Shown here: positions 1,846 to 45,257 of the stretch, piece by piece
Layout: each line of letters begins with the position of its first letter
Numbering within the stretch: position 1 is the stretch's first letter
Source of the DNA: Rugalucina vietnamica
Taxonomy: Eukaryota; Mollusca; Bivalvia; Lucinida; Lucinidae
Length of the DNA: 64,000 nt
Reading direction: 5' to 3'
Assembly: GCA_964017185.1 (NCBI GenBank)
Contig: OZ024871.1
Span: forward strand, 28,806,488-28,870,487
Notes under the pieces: model-generated
Told to the model about the DNA's origin: nothing
The model's input: the letters and a program-made list of their open reading frames with translations, nothing else
The model's database searches: none
Program-made: the position numbers and the translations under genes

Positions 1846-1915
1846 CATAGAGAATTTTATTGAGAAAATATTTAATGGCTTAGAACATATTCTAACACAC
1901 CCTGCCTATAGAAGC
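1846..1915. repeat. R2 dispersed repeat fragment
   Basis: The block around AGAATTTTATTGAGAAAATA and the following TTTAATGGCTT recurs at 5757, 16550 and 58570. No coding capacity is seen. Confidence 0.5.
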
Positions 1916-1928
1916 CAATGGTAAAGTG

Positions 1929-2100
1929 CAGTGATATATTTAGTAATGTATCACTGGGCGGATTAGCGTGACGCTACTTTGCGCCGTTTTGACACCATTT
2001 TGATTAAATTATGACGTCAGCTATTCCAAAAGTCACGTTACCTTGACGTTAGACGGTGTAACGTCATTTCAACGCGTTCGTATGTAAACATTTGCGGTGC
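1929..2100. other. GACGT-rich segment with small hairpin
   Basis: A short inverted repeat (CAGTGATATA ... TGTATCACTG, 1929-1958) is followed by several GACGT motifs (ATGACGTCAGC, TTGACGTTAGACG). The arrangement resembles the larger GACGT-plus-hairpin units at 5080, 7830 and 56660. GACGTCA is the textbook CRE/ATF site, but nothing here shows a promoter. Confidence 0.4.
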
Positions 2101-2201
2101 AGTCAAAAGTTTGGCGGGATTACTTCAGTGCAATGGTGGCAAAGTTAAAGAAACAGGTTTAAAATGATTTTATTCCGGAGTCGAAAAAGATCAGCTCAGA
2201 T

Positions 2202-2373
2202 AGATTGTGGGTACATGTTAGAACCGCCTCGCCGAGGCGGTTCTAACGAGTACCCACAATCTATGTTTTGGAGCAAAAATAAGAAAAATAGGTATACCCC
2301 TGCATACCCCAGTTTTACTATATAAAAGTGGGGTTCAAGGGGGTATACATTTCACGGACAAGTTTTCCTGATG
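2202..2373. mobile_element. MITE-A, 5'-truncated copy
   Basis: The copy retains the central palindrome, including GAACCGCCTCGCCGAGGCGG, and the right half ending CGGACAAGTTTTCCTGATG. The left terminal half is missing. Confidence 0.75.
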
Positions 2374-2449
2374 TTTAATCTTGTTAATGTATTTTGTCCC
2401 AGTCTTTGATTTTGGTCCGAACTTTTCTTTAGCATCACTGACCTATATA

Positions 2450-3320
2450 GAGTACACGGATCGAGTACAGCTATGTCATGCATATTGTCCTATCAAGCGA
2501 TCAAAACATGACAACAAGGCAGATTTATGACGGGGCGCTATAATCTTCTCAGCATTTTATGAGCGATCTGTTGGATTTCAGTGCAAACACAATGTCGTTT
2601 GTAGAGGATTTTCAATAATGGGACAAAACTGCTGGAATTTTATTGCTGATGGTTATTTATTATAAGCATGTTCTGGTGTAAGTGTTCTTTGACAAGGAGT
2701 TTTCTTTCGTGTGAAAGCAGAAAAATACACTTTGGCATGAAACTGGCGAACCAGAATAGTACACATAAAATAAAAAGGTATTTTTTTCTAAAAACGTAGA
2801 CAACCAGGTTTCTTAACCAACCTTATATATTAGTACGTAGCATTCTAGCTTCAATCGGCTTTGGTTGTCCTGGATTTCTTAAACTAATGTTTGTTTGTTT
2901 TATTTGATGCTCTACTTTCCAACAGCTGGTTCTCTTAAAAGTATAACTTTATAATTTTTGAAGACATTAAATATGTCACCACTGTCAGATGATTGTACTT
3001 ATGCATGTTTAGAATAAAGATTAAATTGTTAATAAAGCCTTTTCTTTCTGAAGTTAGTTTAGTTTACCCAGAACTAAAACTGACAGAAGGCGATTTCGTT
3101 TTATAGCTCTGAGATCATTCGTACAATTCGAAGCAAAACTGTAATGGCCTAATTCCATTTAAGAACATAACTACCAGACACCAAACATCCCCTATTGCAA
3201 ACAATTGATATACTTTGTTGCCTTTTATGACGGCACCGAAAGTTTTCAATTAGCTTTGTAGACGAATAACACTTAAAGGTTTAGACTGTCTCCTTTATGA
3301 AAACTACTGGGCAAACTGAA
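2450..3320. repeat. R3 long dispersed repeat
   Basis: This ~870-bp block is colinear with 37460-38258 and 46427-47225, with shared landmarks GAGTACAGCT, CTATCAAGCGATCAAAACAT and TTTGTTGCCTTTTATGAC. It is partly colinear with 9110-9790. It is non-coding and its family is unknown; the right edge of the 9-kb tandem duplication falls inside another copy of it. Confidence 0.65.
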
Positions 3321-3795
3321 TTTTCAACGAGAAATAACGTCTGTGTTGCTATGTTACGCAAGAACTGATTTCAAGTTAAATGTTTACTTTCCAAACATTG
3401 TTTTGAAATAATGAAATATCTTGAATTTGAAAATTAGTGGTATATTTTTAGCACCAATGACATTCAGTGTTTTTAGTCTTTTTTAACAGGTGAAAGGGGT
3501 TAGTAACTGTACTTCTCTTCTATTTTTAACATGAAAAATACCGTCCTTGAATGCTGGTTATGACCTTATTTCTTTGCTGTACTTGCATGCGGCCTGGGCC
3601 TTATCCTTATCTGCTGTATAAGTTGGGGCACGCTAGGAGTTGTGAAGCATATAAATGAGCTTTTATTGGCGGAAATTATAATGGGAGTCTGAGGAGTGAA
3701 TGGGAAAGATAATTCCGTGTCTCTCTGTCCACAAAAGTCTATTGATTTAAACTGGTACAGTTTATCTTAGAAAATAAAACATCAGAAAGCAGAAC
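3321..3795. other. no recognised feature
   Basis: AT-rich sequence with no usable open frame. I found no internal repeat and no second copy in the window. Confidence 0.4.
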
Positions 3796-4679: not shown

Positions 4680-4890
4680 GGAGATGCGGTGACGGCGTTT
4701 TGGGTAATGTTGTGGCGGGTTTAACCCTTTACCTAGGGGCGTAGTATCTAGAACGTAAACTGTACCGAGGGCGTTAAATCTTATATTACCAGGTATTACT
4801 GCAAATGGTAACACAGCAAAGATAAGACTCTGAAGAAGTGCACGTTTCTGAGTTTTGCAAAATGTCACACTAAAATTGAATCGCACATAG
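4680..4890. repeat. R2 dispersed repeat copy
   Basis: It shares GAGATGCGGTGACGGCGTTT, GTGCACGTTTCTGAGTTTTG and AAAATGTCACACT with 16325-16540, and partly with 58470-58560. The minus-strand frame at 4626-4886 runs through the repeat and is not a gene. Confidence 0.6.
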
Positions 4891-5613: not shown

Positions 5614-5690
5614 TAGGCTGATATCAGTCACTAGTGACTTTTTATATCAGTGAGATTTGATATCAGTGAAATTTCATATCAATGAAAATA
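5614..5690 (+). repeat. short ATATCAGTGA repeat cluster
   Basis: Degenerate repeats of GATATCAGTGA occur about four times in 80 bp, with the inverse TCACTAGTGA between them. This may be minisatellite debris. Confidence 0.5.
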
Positions 5691-18135: not shown

Positions 18136-18310
18136 ACAAATACATTTTAATAAACTTTATGATTGGTTGATTGGGGTTTAACGTCCCACCAACAGCTAAG
18201 GTCATATGGAGACGGGACCTCGGTTTATAGTCCCATCCGACGGACTGGAGAATAAAATATAAAGGTTTGATCCTTTGGAAGCAATAAGAACATTCAAAGG
18301 AAGATAGAAT

Positions 18311-18356
18311 GGACTATATTGCGCAATTTCGGGTAATGAACCCTCATCAGTAGCCC
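18311..18356 (-). ncRNA. hammerhead ribozyme, copy 1
   Basis: On the minus strand stem I is GGGCTA pairing with TAGTCC (6 bp, one G-U). The core CTGATGA is followed by stem II GGGT-TCATT-ACCC, then GAAA. Stem III is the short self-complementary ATTGCGCAAT, followed by the cleavage base A (UA) between positions 18317 and 18316. All invariant core positions of the hammerhead (CUGANGA, GAAA, UH) are present. The very short stem III fits the class found in animal retrozymes and Penelope-like elements. Confidence 0.85.
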
Positions 18357-18684
18357 TTTTTAAACCGGCGACGAAAGCCAGACTATTGTACTTTAATTTC
18401 GAAAATTTACACGAGAAGTCTAAATCAAAGACACATTCCAAAACGGGGTCAAATAATTTAAACATTGCTTAGAAGTATGTTTCTAAACTTGAATGGTTTG
18501 AACACTCTAAATATCTTTACTGATCTCAAAGGACATAAATAAAAATATAATCTGCACTATGGATGATGTACGGGGAGACTTTTTACGGCCGCCACACGGC
18601 ACAGCACCAGCTGCAGTAATAGCAAATAAAATATAAAGGTTTGATCCTTTGGAAGCAATAAGAACATTCAAAGGGAGATAGTAT

Positions 18685-18730
18685 GGACTATATTGCGCAA
18701 TTTCGGGTAATGAACCCTCATCAGTAGCCC
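18685..18730 (-). ncRNA. hammerhead ribozyme, copy 2
   Basis: The sequence is identical in core, stems I, II and III to copy 1, one 374-bp period away. The expected cleavage lies between 18691 and 18690. Confidence 0.85.
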
Positions 18731-19058
18731 TTTTTAAACCGGCGACGAAAGCCAGACTATTGTACTTTAATTTCGAAAATTTACACGAGAAGTCTAAATC
18801 AAAGACACATTCCAAAACGGGGTCAAATAATTCAAATATTGCTTAGAAGTATGTTTCTAAACTTGAATGGTTTGAACACTCTAAATATCTTTACTGATCT
18901 CAAAGGACCTAAATAAAAATATAATCTGCACTATGGATGATGTACGGGGTGACTTTTTACGGCCGCCACACGGCAAAACACCAGCTGCAGTAATAGCAAA
19001 TAAAATATAAAGGTTTGATCCTTTGGAAGCAATAAGAACATTCAAAGGGAGATAGTAT

Positions 19059-19104
19059 GGACTATATTGCGGAATTTCGGGTAATGAACCCTCATCAGTA
19101 GCCC
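19059..19104 (-). ncRNA. hammerhead ribozyme, copy 3 (junction copy)
   Basis: Core and stem II are intact. Stem III reads ATTCCGCAAT, so the outer three pairs remain around a loop. The 5' strand of stem I (GGGCTA) overlaps the SINE sequence GCGGGC at the array boundary. The expected cleavage lies between 19065 and 19064. Confidence 0.75.
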
Positions 19105-19319
19105 GCGATCGAACCTGCGCTCCCTGGTTTACAAGGTAAGTGACATAACCACTGCACCACGGAGGCTTCTAATAAACCTTATGTCTCCTCTTGTCATTAT
19201 TATAGTATAGTTAAAGATTTGTTTGCTTTGGTTTTGAAATGTTGGAAATGGCCAGAGTGATCGAATATCGTTTTGCCTATGAAAACGAAGGGTGATATAT
19301 AATTGCGCGAGTCAGTCGA

Positions 19320-19745
19320 CTAGGTACAAGTAGGCAAAGATCAGGAAAAGGCGCAATCAGAAAAAGATTCCCACTCCAAAAACCGAGGTGGAAAAAACCA
19401 AACTAACAATCAGGTACTTAAACCATGAAGACATATCGTAAGCCGAATGAGCAGCTATTTTCCCAATAGGTGGCCACTCAGTTACCTAAACTTAACTAAA
19501 AATATGAAAACATACATAAGGCGTCAACAGCATATAAATTTTAAACACCAAGACATAAAACAAAAAGAACCACCACAGAAGTATTGCCTTGGAACGATCA
19601 GTAACACAAAGTTACTGGCGGGCTTAAACCGCTTTTACATGGCCATAACCTCACCCTCAGCTTCTGCAGTGATTCATAATATTTACTTAGTTCTTCGGTC
19701 CTCGTGGTGCATCACTAACTAGTCAATGATTTATCAAGAACAAAC
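19320..19745 (+). repeat. R1 dispersed repeat, longest single copy
   Basis: It runs from GTACAAGTAGGCAAAGATCA through CGAATGAGCAGCTATTTTCC and CCTTGGAACGATCAGTAACA to GGTCCTCGTGGTGCATCAC. The first ~285 bp equals the discrete insertion at 20172-20455. Confidence 0.65.
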
Positions 19746-19779: not shown

Positions 19780-21566
19780 AAGAGGACCAATGGTTCTGTA
19801 AAACGCTCACCTGAGAACTGGGATATGCAACCAAAGCAGACCTTGCCGTAAAATAGGTCAAGGCCATCCCAGGGTCATGATGCTCCACATAAAGTTTGGC
19901 TTTTATTGGCAAAGTGGTTTCAGAGAAGAAGATCTTTGAATATTATGGTCATATACATGTATATAGCCTGGAGGTGGGGCAGACAAGCCCCTGAGGACAT
20001 TTTTTTTCCATCAACATAAATCGTCTGTCCATTTGCATATTCCCAGCAAGTTTTCCCCTATTTAATTACATTTTACTTACTTTCCACCATTCAAATGCAT
20101 GGAAAACCTATGTTGGCCTTGCCATAAAATAGGTCAAGGTCATCCCAAGGTCATGATTTATATAAACTTTGTGTTACTGATCGTTCCAAGTCGATACTTC
20201 TGGGGTGGTTCTTTCTGTTTTATGTCTTGGTGTTTAAAAATTTTTGTGCTGTTGGCGCCTTATGTGTGTTTTCATATTTTTAGTTAAGTTAAGTTAACTG
20301 AGTGGCCACCTATTGGGAAAATAGCTGCTCATTCGGCTTACGATATGTTTCATGGTATAAGTACCTGATTGTTAGTTTGGTTTTTTCCCACCTCGGTTTT
20401 TGGAGTGGGAATCTTTTTCTGATTGCGCCTTTTCCTGATCTTTGCCTACTTGTACCTTTGTAGAGCTCTTCTCCCTGATGCTTCATGCCAAGTTTCAAAA
20501 TCATAGGCCTTCTGGTTCTGGAGAAGAAGATTTTTAAAGTTTTTTTTGCTATTTATAGCCATGGCGGCCATCTTGGTCATGTGACCTTGATCATGCATAT
20601 AAACTTTCATTCTCCCTTCCTAAGAATACTCAACAAGATGTTTGGCTTTGTCGAAACGGTTTCAGAGAAAAAGATCTTTGAAAAATATGGTAATATATAC
20701 ATGTATATTGCCCCCGGATGGGGGCAGACCTGCCCCTGGGGTCCTTTTTTCAGAATCATAAATATTCAGTCAATTTGCCCATTTCCATAAAGTTTTTCCT
20801 GTCAAATGACATTTAGACAATTTTCCCCATTCAAATGCATGCGCGACCTATGTTGACCTTGCCGTAAAATAGGTCAAGGTCATCCCAGGGTCATGATTTA
20901 TATAAACTTTGTAGAGCTCCTCCCCCTGATGCTTCATGCCAGATTTCAAAATCATAGGCCTTTTGGTTCTGGAAAAGAAGATTTTTAAAGGTTTTTGCTA
21001 TTTATAGCCATGGCGGCCATCTTGGTCATGTGACCTTGACTATTTATATTAACTTTCATTCCCTCATCGTAAGGATACTACATATAAAATTTTGCTTTGG
21101 TTGGTTGAGCGGTTACTGAGAAAATTAAGTTTAACATTTAATTTGTAAATGAAAATGACCTTATGCCAAGGTCAAGAAATGACCTTGATCTTTAATACTC
21201 ACATCACTTCATTAGCTCAACATGTTGTCTGTATCTACCAACTTTCAGGTCACAGGCTACAAAACTTCCTGAAAAATTCAATGTTTTCACTTTTTTCCAT
21301 TGAAAAGCCTATGTAGCCAAAATTGATCTTGCCGTAAAATATGTCAAGGTGAACCCAAGGTCATGATTTATATAAACTATAATGGGCCAAAGTCCCCGAT
21401 GCTACATACCAAGTTTCGTCGAAATCGGTTGATTGGCCCAGTGGTTTCAGAGGAGAAGATCTTTGAAATTGTGGACGGACGACGGACGACGACGGACGAC
21501 GGACGGACGCCGGAGCATGGCCATCCTATAAGCTCAGCTTGTGAGCCTTCGGCTCAGGTGAGCTAT
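19780..21566 (+). mobile_element. L-rep copy 1, long bivalve repeat with ~450-bp internal units
   Basis: Bounded by GCTCACCTGAG (19805) and its mirror CTCAGGTGAGC (21553). Internal units repeat GCCATGGCGGCCATCTTGG (20560, 21008) and ATAGGTCAAGGTCATCCC. The right end has a GACGGACGACGG-rich stretch and GCATGGCCATCCTATAAGCT. The same structure occurs at 49050-51002. It is non-coding and interrupted by an R1 core at 20172-20455. I know this repeat type from bivalve genomes but not its formal classification. Confidence 0.7.
20172..20455 (-). mobile_element. R1 core as a discrete 284-bp insertion
   Basis: R1 in reverse orientation is inserted into the L-rep phrase ATTTATATAAACTTTG / TAGAGCTC, with CTTTG duplicated on both sides (20167-20171 and 20456-20460). 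Read on the minus strand it begins GTACAAGTAGGC and ends GATCAGTAACA; its plus strand begins TGTTACTG. The 5-bp duplication suggests a solo LTR or similar, but the far end lacks the CA expected of a canonical LTR. Confidence 0.65.
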
Positions 21567-29086: not shown

Positions 29087-31669
29087 TTACAATTTGGCAG
29101 CTGCCAGGGCCTCTTTTAGTAATATTACCAATTTAGATTTCAGCCTTGCTTTGCTTGGTCTACCTAATTCATTCAGTTTTGCTTTGATTTCAGGAACCGA
29201 CATGTTATCAACTGCATCAATACTGACTTGCGGTTTGCTGTTTGTGTAGTTTTCGTCCGCTTCTTTCATTTCAGTTTGGATCTTTTGCTTTTTTGTCAAC
29301 ATTTGTTTGGACTTTTCATGGGACCAATACCTATCATCAGTTTTCTCATATTTTCTCTTTGTTCTTACGTTACTTTCACTGTACCCTAATTCAAGTCTTT
29401 TACGACAAATAAGCGCTTCCGTTGTTGCGTCAATTTTGCTACTTCTAGCCTGGTGTATTTGTTTTACTATGTCGTTAGTTTTTTCCACTCCCTGGCCACT
29501 AAACTGTATAAGACTTCCGTATCGCCCGACAAAGTACGGCACGTGATATACCAATACGTGTAAATAGGGGGTATCATTTTTGGGCTGATAACCTTCTCGT
29601 TTTTTGGTTCCTATTTTGAGAAAATCTTCCACGAATTACCTAACTTTGCTGAAAACATGAGAACTGTCAAATTCTGCATTGCAGTCATTGTCAGTGATCA
29701 TTGTGTATATGGCCCTAAAGTTTTTCCATAGGTTTATTACATCTTCTTGTGTGTCTTCATGAAGACAAAACAAGAGACGTTCTGGCAAGTTTCTAAGGAG
29801 GGTTTTTTGGTCATTCCCGGACAGAGAAGTGTACTCAAATTCACCCGTTTTAGTAACCCATGTTCGAAAGGAAACCCCACAATTTTGAATGGCCTTTACT
29901 AAAAGTTCTAAGTTATCTGTGGCTTGCCCGACAAGTTTTGCATATTGATCGTTCGACATAGCGTCGTCAATCAAATTCGTAAGAAGAATGTCTGTTATTC
30001 GCATAAGCAAATGCAGCTCATCTGGAATGTAGTGATCAATGTCAATGTCTAGCAATGGGGCATATTTTGAACCAAAATTTGCTTTTGCACATGTTGGCGC
30101 ATCTCATCCACCTTTCGTTGTGTATCATTTTCATGCTAATGATTCCATGGAAACGAAATATTGCCACGAGAATCCTTCGGTACCTTACACCAAGGACAGC
30201 AGTAAGTTGCGATACTGCTGTTAAGCCCAAGCAGGATTTGGAGGAATTTCATGTCCCCTCCCACAAAGAATTCAAGCTTTACATCAACATTTCTTACCTG
30301 TAAAACAGGCTTTGCGTTCAGCGCATTGATTTCGTCAAATAACGGCCCTAGTGAACTTTTCAAGTTACTATAGTTTTCATCTGTATTTACTACGGCCAAA
30401 ACCCTTTGTTTTTTTGTGACTTACACCACCTTTACCATTGACTAGTGAAAACGAAACCACTATGAAGTTTGAGACCCTGCTAACCTTAGCTCCATCACCG
30501 GATATTTTGATTTTTAAGTTAGTCGGTATAGTACCTTCGTCTTTTTCTATCGCGAGAACAAGATTTTCAAGCTCAGTTTGGATGCTTAAGTATGAACCGG
30601 GTAGCATTCCTGGGGTGCGTTTAACATCAAACGTTTGATTTATTTCATTTCTACATGCAATAAGATGGTTTCTACGTGGCAGAGTAGGCATGCGCATAGC
30701 AATTTCCTGGTATGCTGAGTCAGATATCATCGCATTGTCGCAAACGTTAAGCATTGATTTTACTTCATGTTTTGCATCGGAAGACATGTTTTCATACGAG
30801 ATTTGTTGTGTTTTGCGCCCATCGACGTTAAGTGCGCACGGATCGCCCGTTAATGTTTCACAAATCAATTGTTTAGGGATGACACCGTAAGATTCCACAA
30901 AATCTAACGATTTCTCAACATCTGCCTCAAGTTTATGTTTAAACTTACTTTTGTTGGTTTTAGAGACCTTATCAAGACGTTTGCGAGGTACTGACTTTGT
31001 TTCAGACTTTGAAACATCTGAAGAAGTTACCATCTCATTTTCTTGAACATTAATCTTTTTAAGCTTCTCATCAAATTTTGTCTTTTTATGCCCACTTCTG
31101 ATTTTTTTGTACTCATTTTTTGTCCTAGATATTTCCTTTCTTAATCTGGAAACCAAATGCTCACCATGTTGTAATTTGACATATTGTAATTCTGTGTTAA
31201 TTTGATCAATTAAAGAATCGTCATTCATGTCAAGCTTCCTTAAAACCTTATTTGGTATTTCTATATAGGTTTGGTTGCCGGTTTTAGGTGATTCGTGAAT
31301 GGATAAATTTAATTCACTTAAAAGTGAAGTTTCAAGTTTTCTTGGCTCTATGCCAGACAAGTTTGAACCTCTTATAGGGGTAAATGACATAGGGGATTCT
31401 TGAAATACAGTGTATTCCCTATCAGGTGTGTTTATCATCGCCAAAGGCGATTGTAACCCCCCATTATTAACCTCTCTTAGGGGTGTGCTTCTTTTGACAG
31501 GGGTACCTTGCACAGGCTTGTGCTGTTCTTCAAGGGGCAAGTTTGACGATTTGGTCCCGTTTCGCCTACTCCCATTTCGCCTACTCCCTTTTCGCCTATT
31601 CCCATTTCGCCTACTCCCGTTTCGCCTACTCTGGACATTCAATGAATTCCCATTTCGCCTACTCTGCAC
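29087..31669 (-). pseudogene. DDE-type transposase-like gene with SAP-like C-terminus, broken (copy 1)
   Basis: Four minus-strand frames in order make one protein of roughly 850 residues. First (31669-30377, 430 codons): five near-tandem SRRNG-type repeats, a basic coiled region, then KISGDGAKVSRVSNF with the first candidate catalytic Asp. Second (30399-30136): EFFVGGDMKFLQILLG with the second Asp, then CPWCK, a Cys pair typical of zinc-binding insertions in such transposases. Third (30055-29636): IPDELHLLMRITD. Fourth (29632-29087): GRYGSLIQFSGQGVEKTND, a candidate for the last acidic residue, and a C-terminal SAP-like helix pair (VPEIKAKLNELGRPSKARLK). Frame breaks occur at an A-run near 30406, a TAG at 30136, a shift near 30065 and a TAA at 29636. 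I recall this motif set from transposase-like proteins in corals, Hydra and molluscs, but do not assign a superfamily. The duplicate copy shares every break. Confidence 0.7.
31556..31664 (-). repeat. 15-bp minisatellite inside transposase N-terminus
   Basis: Six units of GTAGGCGAAATGGGA / GTAGGCGAAACGGGA (minus strand), five contiguous and one displaced, encode SRRNG repeats in the transposase-like frame. The fourth Asn position varies between AAT and AAC, a silent change. Confidence 0.85.
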
Positions 31670-32005
31670 TTTTTGACAGCAAATGTGTTTTTGTTTTCTT
31701 TTTCAATCTTATTATCATTGAATTCTATTCTACATGTTTTATAGTGAATAAAATATGTGAATATTGTAGTTGTTTTAATTGTTAAAATAGAAATTAATTT
31801 AATTTAGATCAACAATTAATGAGTTTGCAATTTATATATGCTTGCACAAGCCCTTTAAATAATCATTTTCTTCAGAACCAAAAAATAAATAAATACACAT
31901 ACTAATTTCACTTTTCTAAGGTAAACTTTCAAATGTATTTGCATATTTAAATGAATCTCATGTTTGAAAACAACATTCTATTCTTGTTATTCATCCATAC
32001 TGGAT

Positions 32006-32136
32006 GAGTAGGCGAAACGGGAATAGTGAACATTTCTGGTGTAGGCGAAATGGGAGTAGGCGAAACGGGAGTAGGCGAAATGGGACAAATCATAGGCGAA
32101 ACGGGAGTAGGCGAAATGGGAGTAGGCGAAACGGGA
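32006..32136 (+). repeat. 15-bp minisatellite, inverted partner cluster
   Basis: Seven units of the same 15-mer as 31556-31664, now reading GTAGGCGAAAYGGGA on the plus strand, are grouped 1+3+3. The two clusters are therefore inverted, separated by ~340 bp. On the minus strand they read VSPTP / ISPTP in the frame 32153-31947, which has no other sign of being a gene. Confidence 0.85.
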
Positions 32137-32333
32137 ACATCCCAGTTTGACATGGTTGAATCAATTACAGATAATGCGTTAAAAACACAATGAATATATG
32201 AATATTGTACTAATGAAATTCACATAAAAGTAAAAGTATGTTTTAATACAAAATGTAGTTCATCACACACGTGTTAATTACACAAAAGGCACTTCCATGA
32301 CCGATAATGTTCAATTTATATAATCCAATGATC

Positions 32334-32813
32334 TTATAAGTCAGACACACAACATGCTTCTGTGCACGAATAAATTATGCATCTCTCCACGGGAATAGTT
32401 TTTTCGGTTAGTTTCTGGTTCTCCTTGACAAATATTTTCCGCATACACAAACGAATTGACAGTCTAACAGGGAACTTTATTTTTCTACCACTTCCATCAT
32501 TATTTAATCTATAATACCAGTTATCAGGTAGATTTAGAAACTCGAAGTCGCGCAATTCACATAACTTGGCTTTTTCACCGAAAAGATATCGAAAGATGTC
32601 AAAGTCCATATGAATCACAGATCGTGGGTTTTTGGACTTGAGTCGAGACTGAATAGTCCTCTCGAAGGCGTCGGAGACAGCTTTTATTCTTTGAGCGTCG
32701 ACTTCTGTCGGGATGTAGTTGTTCACGACAACAGCCGGTAGATGGCTCTCTGGCTCCCAGGTACAGTCAGACGCGTGGTAGCCTTCCCATTTTACCAAGT
32801 ACTTCTGCTCCTG

Positions 32814-32872
<59 letters not shown>

Positions 32873-33058
32873 CTATTCCGACATGCGTTCATCCGGCACG
32901 CGTTCGGTGTTGATTGCAATACTCAATGATATTTGTATTATGACACGTGTTGTAACTGTCATAGTGTTTATTCAGATATGATTATACAATTACCTGAAAT
33001 AGGTATTCAGAACGGACGTAAGACAATTATTTAATGAGTATTGATGAGCAAATGGAAA

Positions 33059-33113
<55 letters not shown>

Positions 33114-33162
33114 ATGTCTAGGGTTCACAAGCCACATATCCCCTCAGTAAAATGGGATATAA

Positions 33163-33210
<48 letters not shown>

Positions 33211-33379
33211 TTACATGACTTCCTTTTTCTTTCTTTCTGTGAATCAACCTCTCAACGTTGAAGGTCCCGTCTAGTACGACGGGTGTTGAGTTTTGGAGTG
33301 TCTTTCGAATACTAAGAGATTCACCTTCATTTAACAATTTATAATCTGTCTTTTGTCTTGGTCTTAGAGTTAACTCCAT
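32334..33379 (-). CDS. two-exon chromodomain protein (copy 1)
   Basis: Exon 1 is 33379-33215 (55 codons from ATG). Exon 2 is 32810-32334 (158 codons and a stop). The donor is CAT|GTAAGT and the acceptor TTTACAG|GAGCAG; both join in phase 0 and complete a chromodomain across the junction: TFNVERLIHRKKEKG from exon 1 and KYLVKWEGY, CTWEPESHL from exon 2. Cage positions corresponding to HP1 Tyr-Trp-Tyr read Phe (FNVERL), Trp (VKW) and Tyr (EGY), compatible with methyl-lysine binding. Residues ~100-213 are basic and unrecognised. The predicted 213-residue product would act on chromatin in the nucleus. It lies upstream of the broken transposase on the same strand. It could be a host gene or an accessory gene of the element, and unlike the transposase its frame is intact. 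Confidence 0.72.
32811..33214 (-). repeat. chromodomain intron filled with microsatellites
   Basis: The 404-bp intron contains two (TAAA)n arrays (about 32813-32872 and 33053-33114). An (AG)n array (33168-33207) begins six bases after the splice donor, so the transcript has a CU-rich tract right behind GTAAGTG. The equivalent intron in copy 2 is 380 bp because these arrays are different lengths. Confidence 0.8.
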
Positions 33380-33771
33380 GATGATAACAGGGATAATGAT
33401 AGTTTCACACCAACGATTTCACACACAAGCAACATTTGAGTAGAACTTGATTGCGAAACACAGTGTCATTACTAATTGACATTATACAATCATGAGCTAA
33501 TTGACATCTGTGTTTTCAATTCGACATATACTGCCGAAAAAGGAGAAGGTGTTGAGCAAAGGATTTAGTTAATTGCGCACCGACAATACTAATTGGCACT
33601 TTAAACCTGTCTCAGAATAATTGAAGACTCGTCTTTGAATTCGGTAACTTATTGATCCCAATTACTTTCAAACATGAAATATTATTAAAATCACTTTAAT
33701 AATTTTAACAAATTAATCGGGTCTTTTCAAACGCAATCAAGAACTATCATGACATTAGAAAACAATGATGG

Positions 33772-33823
<52 letters not shown>

Positions 33824-34603
33824 ATAAAGATATGATCCCGAGCTTATAGAATTAGAAAAAAAATATAGTAATGTTTAATGTTTTATTTCCGCAAAATATC
33901 AATCTCTAAACTAAATCCTATAAATTTATTCATATAAAATTCTCTATTACACTATCAGTCATCAAATACATTTTATTTTCATATTAGAGCGATAATCGTC
34001 GCCCACGGTATTATTACCTGGAAATTAAGTCGGGTCTTATCGGTGCATTTTACGGAGACTCACGGAAATTCCAGATAGAAAATAATATTTATTATTTTTG
34101 GTCCTTGCTCAAACAGACCAATTTATCGTTGAGCTACAAAAATAAAAAATACACCAAACTAAAAGATAATATTTCTTCTACATTAGACCGTTTGTGACGC
34201 CTAACATTTATATAAAATTATCGCTTAAAATTGTTGCTTAAGTCATGTACCTAGGCGTATTTAACCGCGTTTTACGGAAATTTTGCTATATATTTAATTA
34301 AATTGCGTACAACTAGACAACCGTCCTCAAACAGACCATTTTATAATAGCGCTACGTCAAAAATTTAAAAACTATGGTAAAGATAAAGGATTATACTTTC
34401 TAACGCCGTTCGTGATACAAAAATATCATAACAAATAAGGAAGTTATTAAGTGCTAAATATTTTTCCCTATATGTTTTATACAATTCATTGGCCAATATC
34501 TGTAGAAGTGCTAGTACGAATAAAGTACCTCATGTTCTACTCCAAAAATAACCGATGTTGGAAAAAAAACTTAACTTAACAATGATCATGACTCGGTCAA
34601 GGC
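33380..34603. other. unassigned AT-rich sequence with poly(A)
   Basis: A pure A tract of about 50 bp lies at 33773-33822. No gene or repeat partner outside the duplication is recognised. Confidence 0.45.
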
Positions 34604-34615
34604 AGAATCAACTTG

Positions 34616-34779
34616 TTGGTTGGTTGATTGGGGTTTAACGTCCCACCAACAGCTAAGGTCGTATGGAGACGGGACCTCTGTTTATAGTCCCATCCGACGG
34701 ACTGGAGAAGCCCGGGATCGAACCTGCGACCCCTGGCTTACAAGGCGAGTGACATAACCACTGCATCACGTAGGCTTCT
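34616..34779 (-). mobile_element. SINE-C, intact tRNA-derived SINE
   Basis: A 12-bp target duplication AGAATCAACTTG flanks it (34604-34615 and 34780-34791). The minus-strand head has A box-like GATGCAGTGGTTATGTCACT and B box GGTTCGATCCC. The tail ends GGGACGTTAAACCCCAATCA plus CCAACC repeats. This is the uninterrupted reference for the split copy at 18162-19170. Confidence 0.85.
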
Positions 34780-34791
34780 AGAATCAACTTG

Positions 34792-35829
34792 TGTTGTAGT
34801 TCTGGTTGATTATGGTTTGGCTTTGAAGTTTTCAAGTGTGCTGTTTGCACCTTATGTACATTTTCATATCATTTACATGTAGTTAAGTTCGGGTAACTGA
34901 TTCAAGTCGATTTCAATTTCTACTTGAGTCGAACTTTATTCGACGAAGTCGTTTAAGAACATTTTGTGACCCAGATTTTAACTTATATGGATGGAAGAAA
35001 CCGAGTGTCATGGAATCATTATTGATCCATATACACACCATTTTCCAATGTAAATTATGTTTCTTTTATTTTTTTATTACATTCATATTTTATCTTCATA
35101 TCTTCGCTGAAAGATTGATAATAATTATCACTTCAAATGGAATGTACGGGAACAATTTACTGTGTCGGTGCTCTTGAAAATCTGATTTATGTGACGTAAA
35201 AAATATTCCATACAAAAACGTATGAATGAATCGACGAACTATTTTCTGTTGCGAAACTTGTAATGCGATTTTATGAATGAAAAGCATTATCCCGCGTGAA
35301 TAACAGTGGCCAGCCTGTTGTATAGTAGCACAACAGGTACGAGATGATATTCTCAAACGATCCTATTGGTTGGGTAAACAATAAGCTGGCGATTTACCGT
35401 ACCAATACCAGGGAAAAGTTAAATTCATAATTTATGCCGTACCGGCTGTTTAGGCTATTAGAACTGTTGGAAAACTGACCTTGAATTCTAAATAACCGAC
35501 AAATCATTTGCTATTTATAGGCAGCAAAGGTCAAATGATTGAATCGATTACATAAATCATATTTGCAATTAATGGCTTGCATTTTGCATCATTGCATTCT
35601 CTCTTATTTAATGTCTAAATTTATATGCACACAAAGAATGCGGCAAATTTTGCTTTAAAAGTGCATTTTATACCCAGAAGCGTCTTGCAGACGACAATTA
35701 TTACCCTGCGTGTAACCCCAGTTTTAACTTTTTCTGTTAAAAGGAATCTTTGTCCAGTATTGAAAATAGGAAATAAAACAGAGGACCCCATTGTTCCTGA
35801 GAACGCACACCTGAAGCCTGATTTTGGGG
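34792..35829. other. no recognised feature
   Basis: Frames of 86-88 codons (35096-35356 minus, 35625-35891 plus) lack recognisable domains. This sequence is duplicated with the rest of the unit. Confidence 0.4.
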
Positions 35830-36290
35830 CATTTAGTAATCATAAAATGACCTTGACATTGAATACTCACACACCTTTATTGATTTTATAAGTTTCAAGT
35901 CTAAGGCTGCAATCGTTTCAAAAATCCAATGTTTTCACTTTTTTTTCATATAAAAGCCAGTTTCCATATTTGACCTTGTGGTAAAATCGGTCAAGGTCAC
36001 CCTTTGGTCATCATTAGCAAACTATGATGGGTTAAGGTCCCTAATGCTATATACCCAAGTTTCAGGAATATCAGCCCACGGATTCTGGAGAAAGAGATGT
36101 TTGAGCATTTGTGAGCATGGCAGCCATGTTGAGAAGAATTCAATCCAGATTCAGTATAAAATTTTGCCCCCCCCCCCCAAAGCATGGAGGCTAAAATTTC
36201 ACTTTCAAAAGCACGGTGATTTCTGAGATAACCATATTTTTACTTTTGATAATTTAAAGACCTTGGGCCAAGGTCAAGAAATGACCTTCA
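35830..36290 (+). repeat. L-rep diverged fragment
   Basis: Landmarks AATGACCTTGACATTGAATA, GTCAAGGTCACCC, CTATGATGGGTTAAGGTCCC and AGCATGGCAGCCATGTTG are diverged forms of the L-rep unit. A poly(C) tract lies at 36167-36178. Confidence 0.6.
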
Positions 36291-36604
36291 CATTACTACA
36301 GGTATGTCGTGTTATTTGAAAGTTAAAGAATAAAGCAATAAAGAAGGTAATCTCTTAAGTTTTGTTATTACATTTATCATATACATCAATTTACAACTTT
36401 TGTAAATTTTGAAAAGGTAATTTTTCCATTGATGTCATTGCTTAAAATTCCCAAAATTTTGCCAATTTTCATGATCTTCGATTTTCACCATTGCCAATGC
36501 AAAATTCCTTTGCAAAAATTCATTTTGTTTATAAGAATGCAAGTCCTGAAAGGACAAACTAAGACCCAAGATATTGACAGTAAAAAGATCCTATCGTCCA
36601 CCAA

Positions 36605-36742
36605 GCAAACCTTTTCTGCGAAAAAACATTATCAGACTGAGGCGAGGTTTTCGATTTTAATTACATTGTACATGTGCAAACCTTTTCTGCGAAAAAACAT
36701 AATCAGAGGCGAGGTTTTCGACTTTAATTACATTGTACATGT
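36605..36742 (+). repeat. ~70-bp direct repeat, two units
   Basis: Units at 36605-36675 and 36676-36742 start GCAAACCTTTTCTGCGAAAA and end ACATTGTACATGT; the second lacks ACTG after ATCAG. Confidence 0.85.
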
Positions 36743-38262: not shown

Positions 38263-40657
38263 TTTGGATCTTTTGCTTTTTTGTCAACATTTGTTTGGAC
38301 TTTTCATGGGACCAATACCTATCATCAGTTTTCTCATATTTTCTCTTTGTTCTTACGTTACTTTCACTGTACCCTAATTCAAGTCTTTTACGACAAATAA
38401 GCGCTTCCGTTGTTGCGTCAATTTTGCTACTTCTAGCCTGGTGTATTTGTTTTACTATGTCGTTAGTTTTTTCCACTCCCTGGCCACTAAACTGTATAAG
38501 ACTTCCGTATCGCCCGACAAAGTACGGCACGTGATATACCAATACGTGTAAATAGGGGGTATCATTTTTGGGCTGATAACCTTCTCGTTTTTTGGTTCCT
38601 ATTTTGAGAAAATCTTCCACGAATTACCTAACTTTGCTGAAAACATGAGAACTGTCAAATTCTGCATTGCAGTCATTGTCAGTGATCATTGTGTATATGG
38701 CCCTAAAGTTTTTCCATAGGTTTATTACATCTTCTTGTGTGTCTTCATGAAGACAAAACAAGAGACGTTCTGGCAAGTTTCTAAGGAGGGTTTTTTGGTC
38801 ATTCCCGGACAGAGAAGTGTACTCAAATTCACCCGTTTTAGTAACCCATGTTCGAAAGGAAACCCCACAATTTTGAATGGCCTTTACTAAAAATTCTAAG
38901 TTATCTGTGGCTTGCCCGACAAGTTTTGCATATTGATCGTTCGACATAGCGTCGTCAATCAAATTCGTAAGAAGAATGTCTGTTATTCGCATAAGCAAAT
39001 GCAGCTCATCTGGAATGTAGTGATCAATGTCAATGTCTAGCAATGGGGCATATTTTGAACCAAAATTTGCTTTTGCACATGTTGGCGCATCTCATCCACC
39101 TTTCGTTGTGTATCATTTTCATGCTAATGATTCCATGGAAACGAAATATTGCCACGAGAATCCTTCGGTACCTTACACCAAGGACAGCAGTAAGTTGCGA
39201 TACTGCTGTTAAGCCCAAGCAGGATTTGGAGGAATTTCATGTCCCCTCCCACAAAGAATTCAAGCTTTACATCAACATTTCTTACCTGTAAAACAGGCTT
39301 TGCGTTCAGCGCATTGATTTCGTCAAATAACGGCCCTAGTGAACTTTTCAAGTTACTATAGTTTTCATCTGTATTTACTACGGCCAAAACCCTTTGTTTT
39401 TTTGTGACTTACACCACCTTTACCATTGACTAGTGAAAACGAAACCACTATGAAGTTTGAGACCCTGCTAACCTTAGCTCCATCACCGGATATTTTGATT
39501 TTTAAGTTAGTCGGTATAGTACCTTCGTCTTTTTCTATCGCGAGAACAAGATTTTCAAGCTCAGTTTGGATGCTTAAGTATGAACCGGGTAGCATTCCTG
39601 GGGTGCGTTTAACATCAAACGTTTGATTTATTTCATTTCTACATGCAATAAGATGGTTTCTACGTGGCAGAGTAGGCATGCGCATAGCAATTTCCTGGTA
39701 TGCTGAGTCAGATATCATCGCATTGTCGCAAACGTTAAGCATTGATTTTACTTCATGTTTTGCATCGGAAGACATGTTTTCATACGAGATTTGTTGTGTT
39801 TTGCGCCCATCGACGTTAAGTGCGCACGGATCGCCCGTTAATGTTTCACAAATCAATTGTTTAGGGATGACACCGTAAGATTCCACAAAATCTAACGATT
39901 TCTCAACATCTGCCTCAAGTTTATGTTTAAGCTTACTTTTGTTGGTTTTAGAGACCTTATCAAGACGTTTGCGAGGTACTGACTTTGTTTCAGACTTTGA
40001 AACATCTGAAGAAGTTACCATCTCATTTTCTTGAACATTAATCTTTTTAAGCTTCTCATCAAATTTTGTCTTTTTATGCCCACTTCTGATTTTTTTGTAC
40101 TCATTTTTTGTCCTAGATATTTCCTTTCTTAATCTGGAAACCAAATGCTCACCATGTTGTAATTTGACATATTGTAATTCTGTGTTAATTTGATCAATTA
40201 AAGAATCGTCATTCATGTCAAGCTTCCTTAAAACCTTATTTGGTATTTCTATATAGGTTTGGTTGCCGGTTTTAGGTGATTCGTGAATGGATAAATTTAA
40301 TTCACTTAAAAGTGAAGTTTCAAGTTTTCTTGGCTCTATGCCAGACAAGTTTGAACCTCTTATAGGGGTAAATGACATAGGGGATTCTTGAAATACAGTG
40401 TATTCCCTATCAGGTGTGTTTATCATCGCCAAAGGCGATTGTAACCCCCCATTATTAACCTCTCTTAGGGGTGTGCTTCTTTTGACAGGGGTACCTTGCA
40501 CAGGCTTGTGCTGTTCTTCAAGGGGCAAGTTTGACGATTTGGTCCCGTTTCGCCTACTCCCATTTCGCCTACTCCCTTTTCGCCTATTCCCATTTCGCCT
40601 ACTCCCGTTTCGCCTACTCTGGACATTCAATGAATTCCCATTTCGCCTACTCTGCAC
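38263..40657 (-). pseudogene. DDE-type transposase-like gene, broken and truncated (copy 2)
   Basis: This is the second copy of 29275-31669, with the same four frame breaks and the same SRRNG repeats. Differences are Leu to Phe in the third segment (38893) and Phe to Leu in the first (39931). The C-terminal ~65 codons, including the SAP-like motif, are missing. After KKQKIQ the frame runs across the junction into R3 and stops at 38141. Since both copies carry identical lesions, the gene was dead before the duplication. Confidence 0.7.
40544..40652 (-). repeat. 15-bp minisatellite (copy 2)
   Basis: The sequence is identical to 31556-31664, with no change in unit number. This contrasts with the changed TAAA arrays. 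Confidence 0.85.
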
Positions 40658-40993
40658 TTTTTGACAGCAAATGTGTTTTTGTTTTCTTTTTCAATCTTAT
40701 TATCATTGAATTCTATTCTACATGTTTTATAGTGAATAAAATATGTGAATATTGTAGTTGTTTTAATTGTTAAAATAGAAATTAATTTAATTTAGATCAA
40801 CAATTAATGAGTTTGCAATTTATATATGCTTGCACAAGCCCTTTAAATAATCATTTTCTTCAGAACCAAAAAATAAATAAATACACATACTAATTTCACT
40901 TTTCTAAGGTAAACTTTCAAATGTATTTGCATATTTAAATGAATCTCATGTTTGAAAACAACATTCTATTCTTGTTATTCATCCATACTGGAT

Positions 40994-41124
40994 GAGTAGG
41001 CGAAACGGGAATAGTGAACATTTCTGGTGTAGGCGAAATGGGAGTAGGCGAAACGGGAGTAGGCGAAATGGGACAAATCATAGGCGAAACGGGAGTAGGC
41101 GAAATGGGAGTAGGCGAAACGGGA
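40994..41124 (+). repeat. 15-bp minisatellite, inverted partner (copy 2)
   Basis: The arrangement is the same as at 32006-32136. Confidence 0.85.
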
Positions 41125-41321
41125 ACATCCCAGTTTGACATGGTTGAATCAATTACAGATAATGCGTTAAAAACACAATGAATATATGAATATTGTACTA
41201 ATGAAATTCACATAAAAGTAAAAGTATGTTTTAATACAAAATGTAGTTCATCACACACGTGTTAATTACACAAAAGGCACTTCCATGACCGATAATGTTC
41301 AATTTATATAATCCAATGATC

Positions 41322-41801
41322 TTATAAGTCAGACACACAACATGCTTCTGTGCACGAATAAATTATGCATCTCTCCACGGGAATAGTTTTTTCGGTTAGT
41401 TTCTGGTTCTCCTTGACAAATATTTTCCGCATACACAAACGAATTGACAGTCTAACAGGGAACTTTATTTTTCTACCACTTCCATCATTATTTAATCTAT
41501 AATACCAGTTATCAGGTAGATTTAGAAACTCGAAGTCGCGCAATTCACATAACTTGGCTTTTTCACCGAAAAGATATCGAAAGATGTCAAAGTCCATATG
41601 AATCACAGATCGTGGGTTTTTGGACTTGAGTCGAGACTGAATAGTCCTCTCGAAGGCGTCGGAGACAGCTTTTATTCTTTGAGCGTCGACTTCTGTCGGG
41701 ATGTAGTTGTTCACGACAACAGCCGGTAGATGGCTCTCTGGCTCCCAGGTACAGTCAGACGCGTGGTAGCCTTCCCATTTTACCAAGTACTTCTGCTCCT
41801 G

Positions 41802-41844
<43 letters not shown>

Positions 41845-42030
41845 CTATTCCGACATGCGTTCATCCGGCACGCGTTCGGTGTTGATTGCAATACTCAATG
41901 ATATTTGTATTATGACACGTGTTGTAACTGTCATAGTGTTTATTCAGATATGATTATACAATTACCTGAAATAGGTATTCAGAACGGACGTAAGACAATT
42001 ATTTAATGAGTATTGATGAGCAAATGGAAA

Positions 42031-42073
<43 letters not shown>

Positions 42074-42122
42074 ATGTCTAGGGTTCACAAGCCACATATC
42101 CCCTCAGTAAAATGGGATATAA

Positions 42123-42174
<52 letters not shown>

Positions 42175-42343
42175 TTACATGACTTCCTTTTTCTTTCTTT
42201 CTGTGAATCAACCTCTCAACGTTGAAGGTCCCGTCTAGTACGACGGGTGTTGAGTTTTGGAGTGTCTTTCGAATACTAAGAGATTCACCTTCATTTAACA
42301 ATTTATAATCTGTCTTTTGTCTTGGTCTTAGAGTTAACTCCAT
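41322..42343 (-). CDS. two-exon chromodomain protein (copy 2)
   Basis: Exon 1 is 42343-42179 and exon 2 is 41798-41322, with splice sites, phase and predicted 213-residue product the same as copy 1; I saw no coding difference. The 380-bp intron has shorter TAAA arrays (41801-41842, 42028-42074) and a longer AG array. Reading straight through the TAAA array gives an open frame of FIYL repeats, which is an artefact of the intron. Gene dose in this window is therefore two. Confidence 0.72.
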
Positions 42344-42735
42344 GATGATAACAGGGATAATGATAGTTTCACACCAACGATTTCACACACAAGCAACATT
42401 TGAGTAGAACTTGATTGCGAAACACAGTGTCATTACTAATTGACATTATACAATCATGAGCTAATTGACATCTGTGTTTTCAATTCGACATATACTGCCG
42501 AAAAAGGAGAAGGTGTTGAGCAAAGGATTTAGTTAATTGCGCACCGACAATACTAATTGGCACTTTAAACCTGTCTCAGAATAATTGAAGACTCGTCTTT
42601 GAATTCGGTAACTTATTGATCCCAATTACTTTCAAACATGAAATATTATTAAAATCACTTTAATAATTTTAACAAATTAATCGGGTCTTTTCAAACGCAA
42701 TCAAGAACTATCATGACATTAGAAAACAATGATGG

Positions 42736-42786
<51 letters not shown>

Positions 42787-43566
42787 ATAAAGATATGATC
42801 CCGAGCTTATAGAATTAGAAAAAAAATATAGTAATGTTTAATGTTTTATTTCCGCAAAATATCAATCTCTAAACTAAAGCCTATAAATTTATTCATATAA
42901 AATTCTCTATTACACTATCAGTCATCAAATACATTTTATTTTCATATTAGAGCGATAATCGTCGCCCACGGTATTATTACCTGGAAATTAAGTCGGGTCT
43001 TATCGGTGCATTTTACGGAGACTCACGGAAATTCCAGATAGAAAATAATATTTATTATTTTTGGTCCTTGCTCAAACAGACCAATTTATCGTTGAGCTAC
43101 AAAAATAAAAAATACACCAAACTAAAAGATAATATTTCTTCTACATTAGACCGTTTGTGACGCCTAACATTTATATAAAATTATCGCTTAAAATTGTTGC
43201 TTAAGTCATGTACCTAGGCGTATTTAACCGCGTTTTACGGAAATTTTGCTATATATTTAATTAAATTGCGTACAACTAGACAACCGTCCTCAAACAGACC
43301 ATTTTATAATAGCGCTACGTCAAAAATTTAAAAACTATGGTAAAGATAAAGGATTATACTTTCTAACGCCGTTCGTGATACAAAAATATCATAACAAATA
43401 AGGAAGTTATTAAGTGCTAAATATTTTTCCCTATATGTTTTATACAATTCATTGGCCAATATCTGTAGAAGTGCTAGTACGAATAAAGTACCTCATGTTC
43501 TACTCCAAAAATAACCGATGTTGGAAAAAAAACTTAACTTAACAATGATCATGACTCGGTCAAGGC
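42344..43566. other. unassigned sequence with poly(A), duplicate of 33380-34603
   Basis: Same content as copy 1. The A tract here spans about 42736-42785. Confidence 0.45.
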
Positions 43567-43578
43567 AGAATCAACTTG

Positions 43579-43742
43579 TTGGTTGGTTGATTGGGGTTTA
43601 ACGTCCCACCAACAGCTAAGGTCGTATGGAGACGGGACCTCTGTTTATAGTCCCATCCGACGGACTGGAGAAGCCCGGGATCGAACCTGCGACCCCTGGC
43701 TTACAAGGCGAGTGACATAACCACTGCATCACGTAGGCTTCT
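43579..43742 (-). mobile_element. SINE-C (copy 2)
   Basis: Duplicate of 34616-34779, including both 12-bp target duplications. It was carried by the segmental duplication and is not an independent insertion. Confidence 0.85.
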
Positions 43743-43754
43743 AGAATCAACTTG

Positions 43755-44796
43755 TGTTGTAGTTCTGGTTGATTATGGTTTGGCTTTGAAGTTTTCAAGT
43801 GTGCTGTTTGCACCTTATGTACATTTTCATATCATTTACATGTAGTTAAGTTCGGGTAACTGATTCAAGTCGATTTCAATTTCTACTTGAGTCGAACTTT
43901 ATTCGACGAAGTCGTTTAAGAACATTTTGTGACCCAGATTTTAACTTATATGGATGGAAGAAACCGAGTGTCATGGAATCATTATTGATCCATATACACA
44001 CCATTTTCCAATGTAAATTATGTTTCTTTTATTTTTTTATTACATTCATATTTTATCTTCATATCTTCGCTGAAAGATTGATAATAATTATCACTTCAAA
44101 TGGAATGTACGGGAACAATTTACTGTGTCGGTGCTCTTGAAAATCTGATTTATGTGACGTAAAAAATATTCCATACAAAAACGTATGAATGAATCGACGA
44201 ACTATTTTCTGTTGCGAAACTTGTAATGCGATTTTATGAATGAAAAGCATTATCCCGCGTGAATAACAGTGGCCAGCCTGTTGTATAGTAGCACAACAGG
44301 TACGAGATGATATTCTCAAACGATCCTATTGGTTGGGTAAACAATAAGCTGGCGATTTACCGTACCAATACCAGGGAAAAGTTAAATTCATAATTTATGC
44401 CGTACCGGCTGTTTAGGCTATTAGAACTGTTGGAAAACTGACCTTGAATTCTAAATAACCGACAAATCATTTGCTATTTATAGGCAGCAAAGGTCAAATG
44501 ATTGAATCGATTACATAAATCATATTTGCAATTAATGGCTTGCATTTTGCATCATTGCATTCTCTCTTATTTAATGTCTAAATTTATATGCACACAAAGA
44601 ATGCGGCAAATTTTGCTTTAAAAGTGCATTTTATACCCAGAAGCGTCTTGCAGACGACAATTATTACCCTGCGTGTAACCCCAGTTTTAACTTTTTCTGT
44701 TAAAAGGAATCTTTGTCCAGTATTGAAAATAGGAAATAAAACAGAGGACCCCATTGTTCCTGAGAACGCACACCTGAAGCCTGATTTTGGGGCATT
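43755..44796. other. unassigned, duplicate of 34792-35829
   Basis: No gene recognised. Confidence 0.4.
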
Positions 44797-45257
44797 TAGT
44801 AATCATAAAATGACCTTGACATTGAATACTCACACACCTTTATTGATTTTATAAGTTTCAAGTCTAAGGCTGCAATCGTTTCAAAAATCCAATGTTTTCA
44901 CTTTTTTTTTCATATAAAAGCCAGTTTCCATATTTGACCTTGTGGTAAAATCGGTCAAGGTCACCCTTTGGTCATCATTAGCAAACTATGATGGGTTAAG
45001 GTCCCTAATGCTATATACCCAAGTTTCAGGAATATCAGCCCACGGATTCTGGAGAAAGAGATGTTTGAGCATTTGTGAGCATGGCAGCCATGTTGAGAAG
45101 AATTCAATCCAGATTCAGTATAAAATTTTGCCCCCCCCCCCCCCCAAAGCATGGAGGCTAAAATTTCACTTTCAAAAGCACAGTGATTTCTGAGATAACC
45201 ATATTTTTACTTTTGATAATTTAAAGACCTTGGGCCAAGGTCAAGAAATGACCTTCA
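44797..45257 (+). repeat. L-rep diverged fragment (copy 2)
   Basis: Duplicate of 35830-36290, with the poly(C) tract three bases longer and one substitution at 45182. Confidence 0.6.

Follow-up and report, generated by a model that had tools for sequence, protein, structure and literature searches.

The RNAs of animal retrozymes can be very abundant, and the repeats that encode them have so far not pinpointed the enzyme by which they spread. In its accessible part, a 2020 review describes animal retrozyme repeats as being without a conserved motif that would indicate the spreading retrotransposon. The retrozymes of the mussel Mytilus galloprovincialis, as portrayed in the available sections of their account, consist of type I hammerhead ribozymes (HHRs) in tandem repeats of 350-390 bp, which are low in GC, non-coding and present in thousands of copies (PMC7229834), a description that also suits the array reported here; to those sections, the present analysis adds 3′ ends that share one internal point, 5′ ends that vary, no excess of target-site duplications and a conserved box. 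The HHR satellites of newt and axolotl are alike in their 330-350-bp repeats, their weak stem III and, in one of two axolotl families, a palindromic loop, and differ in sequence and loop details, with ~126,000 HHR motifs in axolotl (PMC7229834, in part). The palindromic stem III described below is reminiscent of the palindromic tetraloop of these amphibian hammerheads and of their action as dimers (PMC7229834). Plant LTR retrozymes share HHR-delimited monomers and a circular RNA model (PMC4918200, PMC7229834), but differ in having type III HHRs, LTRs, a primer binding site, 4-bp duplications and longer units.

A different class of elements with HHRs is that of the Penelope-like elements (PLEs), such as Poseidon of Anolis (PAc), which resemble the present retrozyme in carrying the HHR in tandem units and in their AT-rich targets, and whose reverse transcription starts internally, as we propose for the retrozyme, in PAc 85-92 nt 3′ of the HHR cut and with a need for RNA beyond this start (PMC11167929). 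PLEs encode reverse transcriptase (RT) and GIY-YIG, whereas the retrozyme encodes nothing, and PAc has two start sites in the accessible part of that study (PMC11167929), whereas the retrozyme has one end point. In the open-licence literature, we found no report of a common end or of a link between retrozymes and internal initiation. What is new is thus the internal end point common to the arrays, the box beside it and the pattern of truncation, the retrozyme kind itself being already known. A common end ~66 nt past the ribozyme, an adjacent box and random 5′ truncation offer a concrete, testable address for the enzyme, and the retrozyme ends link the question of the partner to internal initiation, recently shown for a PLE.

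The window, which is the whole 64,000-nucleotide stretch of Rugalucina vietnamica DNA that was analysed, lies on contig C3 of a 1.09-Gb genome. The original prediction placed in it a 374-bp tandem array at 18253..19100. The array stood and its limits did not, since Tandem Repeats Finder gave a slightly longer, plain head-to-tail repeat at 18251-19104 (period 374, 2.3 copies, 98% matches). Beyond what had been predicted, the array has a fixed 3′ end and a conserved box, and is inserted into a repeat that we take, by eye, to be SINE-like. Its features are as follows, unit phase 1 being the first base 3′ of the predicted HHR cleavage site.

18251..19104, minus strand: retrozyme array, 2.28 units of 374 bp, 5′ end at 19104 and 3′ end at 18251 (unit phase 66)
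19059..19104, minus strand: HHR 1, the 5′-most, cleavage predicted at 19065/19064, loop CCGC (pattern and covariance model)
18685..18730, minus strand: HHR 2, cleavage predicted at 18691/18690 (pattern and covariance model)
18311..18356, minus strand: HHR 3, the 3′-most, cleavage predicted at 18317/18316 (pattern and covariance model)
18691..19064, minus strand: predicted 374-nt monomer between cleavage sites 1 and 2 (from repeat period and HHR pattern)
18317..18690, minus strand: predicted 374-nt monomer between cleavage sites 2 and 3 (from repeat period and HHR pattern)
18251..18282, minus strand: conserved 3′ tail, phases 35-66, AAAGGATC...TTTTATT, at the end of which arrays usually stop on the 3′ side
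18551..18621, minus strand: conserved box, phases 70-140, second unit (comparison with 14 other loci)
18925..18995, minus strand: conserved box, first unit (comparison with 14 other loci)
18149..18250, strand not assigned: half of the interrupted SINE-like repeat, holding the array insertion
19105..19171, strand not assigned: other half of the interrupted SINE-like repeat, on the far side of the array

As predicted, three complete type I hammerheads lie 374 bp apart on the minus strand. The pattern CTGANGA-N-GAAA-N-TATAGTCC matched three times, on that strand only (18311-18350, 18685-18724 and 19059-19098), and never in 100 dinucleotide shuffles. Since GGGCTA directly precedes each match, stem I is GGGCTA/TAGTCC; stem II is GGGT-TCATT-ACCC and stem III has 3 bp (A-U, U-A, U-A) and a 4-nt loop, so that the stems originally put forward, including a minimal stem III, agree with the sequence. 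HHR 1 begins exactly at the insertion boundary, and its loop is CCGC where GCGC stands in the other window copies. The three predicted cleavage sites bound two complete 374-nt monomers that could be set free, and, as originally proposed, the minus-strand transcript would cleave itself into such monomers, which may form circles.

The lack of a covariance-model hit above threshold had been named in advance as grounds for giving the ribozymes up, and formally the outcome goes against them: Rfam hammerhead families gave no match in the window at the curated gathering score, nor at E up to 10. This negative carries little weight because Rfam also overlooked a well-formed predicted phage HHR, which the model built here detects (E 5e-10). 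With the latter model, which was trained on the same superfamily, the three window HHRs score E 8.5e-20 to 1.6e-14. Free folding of the window copies showed no preference for the HHR (z-scores -0.48 to +1.27), and the HHR fold lies 2.7 kcal/mol above the minimum energy for a typical family sequence. When the monomer was folded as a circle, the sense strand gave an MFE of -79.6 (z -1.72, 60 shuffles, 62% paired) and the antisense strand a z of +0.94, a predicted self-pairing of the circular sense monomer that is modest.

Covariation points to a conserved structure. In an alignment of 16 HHRs, comprising the window family, diverged relatives and two further families (A and B), standard pairs fill 95.0% of pair cells, against 85.8% in shuffles, cells with a double change number 22 against 8.0 and the covariation score is 0.387 against 0.221, with none of 500 shuffles as high for either of the last two measures. 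The numbers of pairs with a double change (5 vs 4.2) and of further pair types (11 vs 12.7) show no excess over shuffles in these 16 HHRs. Sliding the structure along the alignment lowers pairing to 23.8-43.1%. One stem III pair switches from U-A to C-G across families. In its main form, each family has a palindromic stem III region (TTGCGCAA, TTGTACAA and CCGCGG), exceptions being L089, among others, and single copies. In four of the five family B rows, stem II has an A-C mismatch at its base, and some retrozyme copies carry mutations in the HHR core. HHR anatomy and stem covariation thus extend across three families, and since the stems covary, the predicted cleavage seems to have been selected.

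These sequences are numerous. A one-unit query produced 94 matches from the best 40 scored of 4,260 candidates, and six exact patterns of 26-29 letters, for each of which the reversed control gave 0, set lower bounds. There are at least 1642 exact copies of the window-type HHR segment, at least 1466 of that of family A and at least 2363 of that of family B (at least 5,471 segments of 26-29 nt in the three sequence families), at least 4568 of a box segment, at least 1414 of the window-type tail and at least 105 of a 26-mer of the window subfamily. Exact 26-mer counts are not used as a depth profile because they differ mainly through sequence differences between families. Among the 100 matches listed of the 1466 of family A, 14 multi-copy groups were counted by eye among 80 loci, which is consistent with short arrays.

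Metazoan non-LTR retrozymes are defined as type I HHRs in tandem repeats of ~150-450 bp, with GC below about 45-50%, non-coding and present as many dispersed dimers to multimers. Here, the unit of 374 bp recurs with three HHRs, its GC is 36%, no stop-to-stop ORF of at least 120 aa overlaps 18251-19104, and the thousands of HHR segments are accompanied by 44 stretches of 0.60-4.08 units, spread over many contigs. Larger target-site duplications, optional in the published wording, show no excess over control pairs in 44 flank pairs. The array has no ORF with RT and GIY-YIG as in PLEs, and neither domain was detected in the eight ORFs scanned of the 14 of at least 120 aa in the window. By size, GC, topology and dispersal, all read from sequence, the window array is a further member of the known metazoan non-LTR retrozymes. 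The retrozyme-like nature originally proposed for it gains from covariation across three families, from thousands of dispersed copies and from the close fit to mussel retrozymes, as far as the available account of these goes (PMC7229834).

The ends of the arrays are part of what is new in the anatomy. In a survey of 39 loci (38 fetched around query matches, plus the window), which stem from a one-unit query and are biased to arrays of at least one unit, 44 of the 51 matched stretches have their 3′ end at phase 65-73, 34 of them at phase 66 or 67, and every locus has at least one such end. Among these 44, six have diverged and match the window unit at 86-91% identity. The seven other stretches are either broken by an inserted repeat (three, in L037, L040 and L049) or fragments of 53-135 bp (four). 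When 14 loci were picked by the box alone, 13 ended, by eye, at the equivalent TTTTATT or a variant, and the 14th continued into the next unit. The 5′ ends, by contrast with this common 3′ end, cover the whole unit, with a mild clustering of phases (Rayleigh p about 0.016, 37 listed by hand) that is expected of a query by which arrays slightly longer than a unit are preferred. In one locus, L040, two arrays abut inverted, at 1892-2450 (minus) and 2448-3024 (plus), with 86.5% and 96.2% identity to the window unit.

Array lengths fit random termination: those of 35 arrays of at least one unit fit an exponential distribution in which arrays exceed one unit by 0.76 unit (285 nt) on average, with a KS p of 0.99, the mean being fitted to the same data and the set leaving out L037, L040, L049, L053, diverged copies and shorter stretches. 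One fixed and one free end are the mark of target-primed reverse transcription truncated at random, and since products are longer than one unit, a circular or multimeric template is needed. Two other routes were considered and rejected, integration of linear cleaved monomers, in which case phase 1 would be an end, and integration of DNA circles at random, which would scatter both ends; neither gives the observed ends. Units are 98.1% identical within an array (58 pairs) and 96.0% between arrays (3,200 pairs). Of the positions covered by at least three units, 30 have private variants shared by all units, 6 have them in some units and 69 in a single unit. This pattern fits one master circle per insertion, though duplication at a later stage or a multimeric template could account for it as well.

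Directly 3′ of the insertion end lies the best conserved stretch of the unit for which loci were not selected. Against the window unit, the 14 box-picked loci are 96% identical over phases 70-95 (for which they were selected) and 91% over phases 96-140 (for which they were not), compared with 67% over phases 141-240, 63% over phases 241-330, 61% over phases 1-34 and 74% over both the hammerhead and the tail. This suggests that the ~70-nt box is a putative binding site for the reverse transcriptase, a promoter being the alternative. Among the 4568 exact box copies, 45 have a non-tail upstream sequence, as judged by a pattern that excludes three tail letters and that an estimated ~1/3 of random contexts would pass. 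For the 43 of these with letters shown, the upstream sequence is mostly varied, one set occurring three times and another twice.

An autonomous element with the retrozyme tail or box was sought with exact patterns, which would miss diverged or very short shared tails, and none was recognised. A 15-nt tail had 19 matches (reversed control 2), three of them with common upstream letters. A 17-nt tail with retrozyme upstream letters excluded had 34 matches, 11 of which belong to one repeat with nearly identical upstream letters. In the three of these 11 copies that were read (L069-L071), this non-retrozyme repeat has 21 nt exactly in common with the retrozyme tail (L069 2950-2970). Its ORFs in L069 look, by eye, YqaJ-like and Harbinger-like, and we presume it to be a Harbinger-type DNA transposon. 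It was set aside as a tail-sharing partner, the shared 21 nt being internal to the repeat and taken as chance.

Insertion sites give a view of the other junction. The SINE-like repeat split by the window array has uninterrupted paralogues at 34606-34780 and 43569-43743, and comparison with this paralogous empty site shows that five of its bases (GGGCT) match the 5′ start of the element, with at most one base missing. In L049/L053, one duplicated locus with a diverged array, there is a 7-base 5′ microhomology (ATGATTT), and in L046 one of four bases (GCTT) in two of four paralogues; the 5′ junction of L055 has no microhomology, and L042 and L060 are ambiguous. The evidence for 5′ microhomology thus comes from three loci, with empty sites that are paralogous rather than allelic. 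Flanks show no excess of shared words, as target-site duplications would give, over mismatched pairs: within 20 bases, such words occur in 1 of the 44 flank pairs (2.4% in mismatched pairs), and within 40 bases in 4 of 44 (10.8%). L033 may have an 8-nt target-site duplication, and a 15-nt flank match in L060 was rejected as one, since it looks native to the target, whose paralogue has similar repeats.

Several other repeats were seen in and around these insertions. Two copies of a several-kb stretch, at 31555-36742 and 40543-45709 of the window and about 8.97-8.99 kb apart, correspond in their tandem repeats and have ORFs in pairs, one ORF of the first copy having a Chromo domain; they also contain the two uninterrupted paralogues of the repeat split by the retrozyme. 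A repeat named X, also present at 19322-19676 and 20165-20457 of the window, sits inside the retrozyme arrays of L037, L040 and L049 at ~phases 217-221, a recurrent position that suggests a target preference. A composite element formed by template switching, considered for these three arrays that share a 5′ junction phase of 217 beside X, was dropped, as comparison shows that X inserted into the arrays. At 49122-50912 of the window, a 455-bp repeat occurs in tandem, in about four copies that have diverged, and related sequence is found upstream of the retrozyme in L043.

Our main reading, to which we give a probability of about 0.8, is that a non-coding, non-autonomous metazoan retrozyme inserted once to give the array, copied by target-primed reverse transcription from a fixed internal start on circular or multimeric RNA. 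Minus-strand transcription of arrays would yield a multimeric RNA, which the HHRs would cut into 374-nt monomers, and a cellular ligase, by analogy with mussel and coral work, would close these into circles. The RT of an autonomous retroelement, primed by nicked target DNA, would then begin at a single internal point, ~66 nt beyond the cleavage site on its 3′ side and immediately before the ~70-nt box that is its putative recognition site, run along or round the template and stop at random. The cDNA would finally join the other side of the break, mostly without target-site duplication and sometimes via short microhomology.

Tandem arrangement, and units that are more alike within arrays than between them, are also what ordinary satellite DNA evolving by unequal crossing-over, with no RNA step, would show. 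Yet flanks differ at nearly all 39 loci (L049/L053 being duplicates) while the 3′ end point stays the same, paralogous empty sites exist for the window copy, and arrays are short and lie on many contigs; with a common 3′ end in unrelated flanks, the satellite explanation is hard to keep as the sole one and we consider it highly improbable. A dead relic, in which HHR motifs are inherited and no longer active, would accord with the weak HHR fold, which is not that of minimum energy, and with the core mutations of some copies. It has to face window-family copies that are ~96% alike between arrays and ~98% within them, and compensatory changes that preserve the stems, which together point to recent activity and make such a relic quite unlikely.

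The form of the template is less clear-cut. It might be a linear, uncut multimeric read-through transcript instead of a circle, the HHR being idle in transposition, as the accessible part of the Anolis study reports in vitro, where HHR mutants of the PLE insert normally (PMC11167929). This would suit array lengths that are memoryless, with no pile-up of 5′ ends after exactly one turn, as well as the small number of box copies with a non-tail upstream sequence and the 6 positions at which variants occur in some units and not in all. Against it, HHR stems covary across families as if cleavage were selected, positions covered by at least three units carry private variants in all units more frequently than in a part of them (30 vs 6), and circles accumulate from published animal retrozymes, as far as the available text describes them (PMC7229834). 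A linear template is a minority option, unlikely though well ahead of the satellite and the relic.

Which enzyme would make the copies is a more tentative matter, a Penelope-like enzyme and a LINE standing level, each of them possible at somewhat less than even odds. The former is considered as likely as any because internal initiation has been described for its class. In the accessible part of the Anolis study, reverse transcription starts inside the RNA, 111-118 nt into the ORF, the HHR cut is at +26 and RNA to +172 is required, HHR mutants having no effect on insertion in vitro (PMC11167929). The order in that PLE (hammerhead, 85-92 nt, start site, needed RNA) resembles that in the retrozyme (hammerhead, 66 nt, end point, box), and the common 3′ ends at phase 65-73 fit internal initiation downstream of the HHR. 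The genome also has candidates for such an enzyme, at least 150 matches for GIY-YIG ORFs being scored of 451 candidates, with open frames of up to 977 aa and a tandem spacing of ~3.89 kb. At C15:425918-437860 and other places, tandem GIY-YIG elements with 964-aa stop-free frames recur with a spacing of ~3.89 kb, some as head-to-head pairs, and are taken as Penelope-like.

The local PLEs themselves fit less well. In one family, a hammerhead-like motif was found by eye, with an extra A before stem II; it scores 6.4 bits (E 2) with the model built here, and no Rfam hammerhead was found in the three PLE stretches scanned of four. Three array ends of this family, at 41, 136 and 136 nt from the presumed cut, all run into (TA)n, and this spacing is weak support for a PLE link. 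In a second family, (TA)n follows one element, and a simple core pattern revealed no HHR motif in the 861 bases read before this run. Since none of 43 retrozyme 3′ flanks opens with at least four TA units, unlike these PLE ends, the local PLE families are unlikely partners, and because the model gave the local PLE hammerhead no confirmation, a Penelope-type partner was given lower odds. It is accordingly doubtful (slightly down from about one in three), though worth stating, that animal retrozymes are templates for Penelope-type RTs that would start at a fixed internal site beside the hammerhead on circular RNA, with the box as the enzyme binding site and tandem arrays as a record of the RT circling.

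A LINE (non-LTR) RT would instead recognise the conserved tail, as LINEs do for SINEs. A fixed 3′ end with variable 5′ truncation, which the arrays show, is the classic LINE/SINE signature, and the (TA)n that follows local PLE ends and not retrozyme ends speaks in the same direction. Target duplications, for which there is no excess in the 44 flank pairs, speak in the other, as does the tail, which in its 15-17-nt form was recognised in no other repeat family apart from the one whose 21 shared nt are probably a coincidence. A circle also lacks the 3′ end of an RNA that LINE enzymes are generally considered to use. In Nematostella, HHR repeats have 15-bp LINE-like target duplications according to the accessible part of their description (PMC4918200), which is a further point for a LINE.

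Hammerheads were also predicted in a source of another kind, the viral contig L072 (IMGVR_UViG_3300017747_001556), on the minus strand at 5618-5680, 4817-4875 and 3525-3581 (42, 29 and 21 bits). Each overlaps the end of an ORF on the same strand (5672, 4872 and 3573, respectively), and the motif TTAACTGA(T/C)GA may unite a stop codon and the predicted ribozyme core.
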